Assembly: GCF_001888165.1 (NCBI RefSeq) | Contig: NZ_CP015455.1 | Span: forward strand, 1,048,001-1,112,000 | Reading direction: 5' to 3' | Origin: Syntrophotalea acetylenica | GTDB taxonomy: Bacteria; Desulfobacterota; Desulfuromonadia; Desulfuromonadales; Syntrophotaleaceae | DNA: 64,000 bases | In this document: one piece after another, positions 24,149 through 24,270 of the stretch | Position numbering within the stretch: the first letter of the stretch is position 1 | Layout of the letters: every line of letters begins with the position of its first letter | Translations under genes and position numbers: made by a program | The notes under the pieces: generated by a model | The model's database searches: none | Seen by the model: the letters and a program-made list of their open reading frames with translations, nothing else | What the model was told of the DNA's origin: nothing

Positions 24149-24195
24149 AAAAACAAAAAGCCCCAATCGGAAGAGGTCTTCTTCCAGAATGGGGC
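24149..24195 (-). terminator. Intrinsic terminator inside the nifH leader (attenuator)
   Basis: In the minus-strand transcript GCCCCA pairs with TGGGGC, with an inner GGAAGA/TCTTCC stem, followed at once by TTTTTGTTTTT. It lies about 100 bases upstream of the nifH start codon and about 47 bases after the predicted transcription start. It would stop transcription before nifHDK unless prevented. Confidence 0.8.
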
Positions 24196-24231
24196 GTCGT
24201 TGCCGCAAAGCCGAAAACACGTCGTTGTGCC
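24193..24231 (-). promoter_or_regulatory. Two-hexaloop antitermination element in the nifH leader
   Basis: On the minus strand, GGCAC-AACGAC-GTGTT (24231-24216) and GGC-AACGAC-GCC (24204-24193) form two small hairpins with the same six-base loop, A at position 1 and G at position 4. They are separated by 11 bases. The 3' arm of the second shares three bases with the terminator 5' arm, so the two structures exclude each other. This is the described architecture of RNA targets for ANTAR-domain antiterminators. The stems are short (3 bp plus two GU pairs; 3 bp). Confidence 0.6.
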
Positions 24232-24250
24232 GTCTGCTTTGCTTTTCCTT

Positions 24251-24270
24251 TTTGCAGGGGGCGTGCCAAG
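24251..24270 (-). promoter_or_regulatory. Sigma-54 promoter of nifH
   Basis: On the minus strand the site reads TTGGCACG, four bases, CTGCA. GG and GC are ten bases apart, matching TTGGCACG-N4-TTGCA at all but one position. The predicted start is near 24243, about 195 bases before the nifH ATG. Confidence 0.85.

Follow-up and report, generated by a model that had tools for sequence, protein, structure and literature searches.

Organization of the nif locus

The window, i.e., the whole stretch of 64,000 nucleotides analyzed here, carries on its minus strand the nitrogenase genes nifH (23173-24047), nifD and nifK (19868-23094; Pfam Oxidored_nitro) and nifB, which encodes a radical SAM protein (17925-18866; Pfam and alignment with relatives). 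The nifH frame is shifted near 23346, where probably one C was lost from a C5 run. On the same strand, at a distance of 7.7 kb from nifH, positions 31782-32344 encode a response regulator with a receiver and an ANTAR domain (Pfam Response_reg and ANTAR), the presumed reader of the RNA switch that is described below for the nifH leader. Its ANTAR domain (31797-31955, E 7.3e-20) is the only one in the genome of 3.21 Mb on two contigs. The frame of this gene is shifted near 32120 here and intact in relatives. It is adjoined by draT and draG (30062-31773, minus strand; Pfam DRAT and ADP_ribosyl_GH), which encode nitrogenase switch-off enzymes, in the order ANTAR regulator, draT, draG, and family members retain the ANTAR-draT pair. 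In a Geobacter-like genome the pair is followed by a gene for a GAF/PAS histidine kinase. No kinase gene lies beside the ANTAR gene of the window, and among the 25 kinase-domain matches in the genome there is no clear ortholog of the Geobacter-like enzyme; the best-scoring one shows 31% identity and none is adjacent. Divergently from the ANTAR gene, on the plus strand (32637-36569), two similar solute-binding proteins flank a transport permease and an ATPase, and both solute-binding proteins are matched by the same P. carbinolicus-like queries.

Inspected by eye, the receiver of the regulator contains its aspartates (VLVVDDKP and LIVMDYIMP), while the usual receiver lysine is a glutamate (YVVEPF) in the genus and its nearest neighbour (including L085 and L092) and a lysine in farther relatives. 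Given this glutamate, phosphorylation control may differ in the genus.

Anatomy of the nifH leader

The sigma-54 (-24/-12) promoter of nifHDK (TGGCACGCCCCCTGCA, 24268-24253, minus strand) was found by pattern match without a mismatch and is 94-100% identical to the corresponding sites of same-genus relatives. Given the usual -24/-12 spacing, the 5' end of the transcript is expected near 24242. The first hairpin, P1, together with its outer helix occupies 24242-24205 and is conserved and covarying in relatives. Its core GGCAC-AACGAC-GTGTT lies at 24231-24216 with the hexaloop AACGAC at 24226-24221, and its outer helix GCAAAGC/GCUUUGC, in which 24242-24236 pair with 24211-24205, starts approximately at the expected transcription start. 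The second hairpin, P2, constitutes the antiterminator half (GGC-AACGAC-GCC, 24204-24193, loop 24201-24196; fold of the truncated RNA). It is followed by an intrinsic terminator (24195-24148) with a stem at 24195-24160, formed by the arms GCCCCA (24195-24190) and TGGGGC (24165-24160) and the inner arms GGAAGA/TCTTCC, and with a U-tract from 24159. The 5' arm of the terminator overlaps the 3' strand of P2. As both structures need 24195-24193, they are mutually exclusive.

This exchange is reproduced by RNA folding. The RNA from 24243 to 24192 folds into exactly P1 and P2 (-21.5 kcal/mol, 79% of the ensemble), and in the leader RNA folded to 24155 P2 is dissolved and P1 stands together with the terminator (-40.1 kcal/mol, z -4.7). 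A sequence-only reading of this DNA had placed a sigma-54 promoter upstream of two hairpins with the same AACGAC loop (24231-24216 and 24204-24193) and a U-tract terminator sharing bases with the second one, such that both cannot form. The promoter is present, the hairpins are correct to the base, the three shared bases are those named above, and the folds swap with RNA length as expected. It had also named the short stems as a weak point. This is relieved for P1, which is lengthened by the outer helix, and stands for P2, which still has 3 bp.

A simple terminator scan of the window did not pick up the nifH leader terminator, because its stem contains internal mismatches. At the gathering score, neither the window nor any of eight relatives gave a match to an Rfam family. 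ANTAR targets were defined by a dual-hairpin rule, which asks for two hairpins with stems of 3 bp or more, for A as the first and G as the fourth base of the hexaloops, and for a P2 that overlaps a terminator (Ramesh et al., 2012; PMC3369931). In the nifH leader, the minimum free energy structure of the truncated RNA consists of two hairpins, each with a stem of 3 bp or more and a six-base loop, both loops (AACGAC twice) have A1 and G4, P2 overlaps the intrinsic terminator, and the genome encodes exactly one ANTAR protein. Pairs of A1/G4 hexaloops occur 34 times in the 64-kb window (both strands), and only the pair in the nifH leader overlaps a terminator.

Conservation and covariation of the twin hairpin

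Every same-genus genome with the locus has in its nifH leader the twin hairpin, its spacing and the overlap of P2 with the terminator, the loops being AACGAC, AACGGC, AATGGC or AACGAT. For the wider search a covariance model was built from 13 nifH leaders, comprising the two hairpins only and leaving the terminator out. The nifH leader of the own genome is matched with E 7.7e-7, a match that, like those of the other training sequences, is not independent of the model. Independent matches were obtained upstream of nifB in relatives, with E values down to 3.5e-6, and in many elements from other families of the order. The genes located 3' of the matches are nifB, nifH, amtB and a gene for a small nitrogenase-associated protein, of which the amtB and nitrogenase-associated open reading frames were identified by eye. 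A terminator overlaps P2 in nearly all strong matches and in no weak match. In the own genome, matches with E above 0.5 (e.g., at 1847054 and 2494534) were rejected as further elements, as they have no overlapping terminator. The element recurs in the nif leaders of relatives with its two loops, its spacing and the P2/terminator overlap kept; conservation in homologous nifH leaders, on which the sequence-only reading had staked itself beforehand, is what was found.

Across the order, the RNA element was detected in 60 of 136 genomes. An ANTAR domain is present in 57 of the 60 RNA-positive genomes versus 49 of the 76 without detected RNA (Fisher p 1.6e-5), where the counts are lower bounds owing to draft genomes and to stricter filters in the large search, and nif gene presence is a partial confounder of the co-occurrence. 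In an alignment of 34 distinct elements, P1 shows 17 double-changed cells versus 4.9 in shuffles, and 0 of 500 shuffles were as high, in an alignment that was gathered by a model scoring the same stem and is hence biased towards it. Sliding the pairing partner of P1 destroys the pairing. P2, with only 3 bp that are invariant, is uninformative for covariation. The P2 loop has A1, A2 and G4 in all 34 elements; the P1 loop has G4 in all 34, with position 1 being A in 26 and G in 8.

These data bear on the possibility of a terminator that acts as a constitutive attenuator or polar stop, with incidental A/G hexaloops and with control exerted wholly at the sigma-54 promoter. The promoter is indeed perfect and highly conserved, and P2 has three pairs only. 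However, dozens of genomes show this arrangement of loops, spacing and terminator overlap upstream of several nif genes, and a passive terminator has no need of the compensatory changes seen in P1, making this explanation very improbable.

The nifB leader and the integrity of the system

Upstream of nifB lies a decayed copy of the twin hairpin (18993-18950, minus strand), which is matched by the model with E 0.0014 in the window and 0.07 genome-wide. In its P1 loop A1 is changed to C, and the leader has neither a U-tract nor a recognisable sigma-54 site, whereas in the nifB leaders of relatives the sigma-54 site, the A/G loops and the U-tract are all intact. In the same-genus genome G004, presumably Pelobacter carbinolicus, a ferredoxin gene and nifB are separated by approximately 3.7 kb, compared to approximately 0.2 kb here. 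This would most simply be explained by a deletion that fused nifB to the nifHDK operon and by decay of the switch that nifB once had.

Together with the shifted frames of nifH (~23346) and of the ANTAR gene (~32120), the nifB leader lacking promoter, A1 and U-tract could indicate that this strain has only a relict of the switch and that the system perhaps no longer works. This is considered unlikely. A third frameshift within the same ~25 kb affects an unrelated saccharopine-dehydrogenase-like polyamine gene (~28520, minus strand), and all three look like the loss of one C from a C5 run, suggesting that they are probably assembly errors; C/G runs of five bases show no general depletion, which would have pointed to systematic sequencing error, so that assembly errors are only the probable explanation. 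Moreover, the promoter and the loops of nifH are intact, and the promoter of nifB may be dispensable, because the 3.7 kb that lie between it and the nifHDK operon in the relative are absent here.

A conserved element downstream of the terminator

A second leader element (GCGGGACGG...CACAACCC, 24137-24069, minus strand), located 3' of the terminator and 5' of the nifH ribosome-binding site, is strongly conserved. Its identity among same-genus genomes is 79-97%, compared to 56-82% for the switch unit, and it is found in 7 of 136 genomes from two genera, as a single copy in each. No Rfam match was obtained for it, the fold of the window copy is no better than that of shuffled sequences (z +0.6), and the six nearly identical sequences, having no compensatory change, are uninformative on a pseudoknot. 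A conserved reading frame seems unlikely: the open extensions upstream vary from genome to genome, and in one genome the frame stops approximately eight codons upstream.

The stronger conservation of this element relative to the hairpins within the genus would fit a leader that switches without protein or with another protein, e.g., a ligand-binding riboswitch with 24137-24069 as its sensor. This is exceedingly improbable, as the element is located after the terminator and thus cannot decide termination, and as it is absent outside of two genera, unlike the twin hairpin. Next to ANTAR-controlled termination, it can tentatively be imagined that the nifH leader contains two serial checkpoints, first the ANTAR switch and then the RNA 24137-24069, which would act on translation of nifH or on mRNA stability; we regard this as a possible, though rather doubtful, extension. 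A deeper form of serial checkpoints is suggested by relatives, the nifH leaders of which have two ANTAR-type attenuators in tandem. Such tandems occur in several nifH leaders of other genera and are present in most of the relatives' leaders L098, L099, L100, L101, L102, L019 and L096. The second attenuator consists of a CC/GG-closed stem with a five-base P1 loop of the AUGGC type (A1, G4) and of a hexaloop P2 that overlaps another terminator. The first attenuator of L096 looks degenerate. The stems of the second attenuator vary while its loop stays, which favours a function.

Proposed mechanism

Taking together the observed anatomy, mutually exclusive folds, conservation, covariation and co-occurrence with ANTAR genes, the nifH leader is very probably an ANTAR-controlled transcription antitermination switch. 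RNA polymerase with sigma-54 would initiate near 24242 and would produce P1 and P2 first. If no active regulator is present, P2 would melt, the overlapping terminator would form and transcription would stop ahead of nifHDK. When active, presumably in a phosphorylated and dimeric state, the receiver-ANTAR regulator (31782-32344) would grip the A1/G4 loops of P1 and P2. With both hairpins held, the terminator would be blocked and nifHDK transcribed. Binding by the ANTAR protein, the way in which the switch responds and the signal to which it responds are inferred. That nifH follows an ANTAR antitermination logic had been the central claim of the sequence-only reading, and it gains support from the conservation, the covariation, the lone ANTAR protein of the genome, which that reading had not mentioned, and a published prediction.

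Relation to known ANTAR systems

This prediction concerns Pelobacter carbinolicus, for which ANTAR substrates were predicted in three nitrogenase transcription units (Ramesh et al., 2012; PMC3369931). In G004 the model yields three strong matches (nifH, nifB and the nitrogenase-associated gene). The system of the window is similar to this regulon in that ANTAR dual hairpins precede nitrogenase units (PMC3369931), but here only the nifH element is intact, the nifB element being decayed. With the EutV, NasR and AmiR systems it shares the two hairpins, the A1/G4 hexaloops and the location of P2 over an intrinsic terminator (PMC3369931). In contrast to these, the target here, nifHDK, is preceded by a sigma-54 promoter, P1 has an extra outer helix, and loop 1 begins with G in some relatives.

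GnfR of Geobacter sulfurreducens is reportedly a receiver-ANTAR regulator of nif genes within the GnfL/GnfR phosphorelay, a description that goes back to Ueki and Lovley in 2010. The gene gnfR corresponds to GSU2822 and is named as a nitrogen-fixation response regulator (PMC7962754). The regulator of the window is of the same receiver-ANTAR type and from the same order, and the Geobacter-like relative carries the ANTAR-draT-kinase cluster; the difference is that the ANTAR gene of the window has no adjacent kinase gene and no clear ortholog of that kinase among the 25 of the genome. Compared with the narK RNA of Rfam (RF03032), the full-length match is subthreshold (18.9 bits, E 0.07, at a gathering score of 43.2 bits), and stems and target genes differ. 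The printed consensus of RF03032 itself shows a sigma-54 site followed by two hairpins with A..G hexaloops, and judged from this consensus the narK RNA family may be an ANTAR target as well.

The switch belongs to a known and already predicted system, and its novelty is modest; new is the broader comparative support. With it, the single-species prediction of 2012 becomes a regulon with a consensus, with loop rules and with one regulator to match, which can be taken into binding and read-through assays. Further leads are provided by the conserved 3' element next to the switch and by the tandem units, and with the nifH leader, control of nitrogenase past transcription start can be studied in a clean and testable case.
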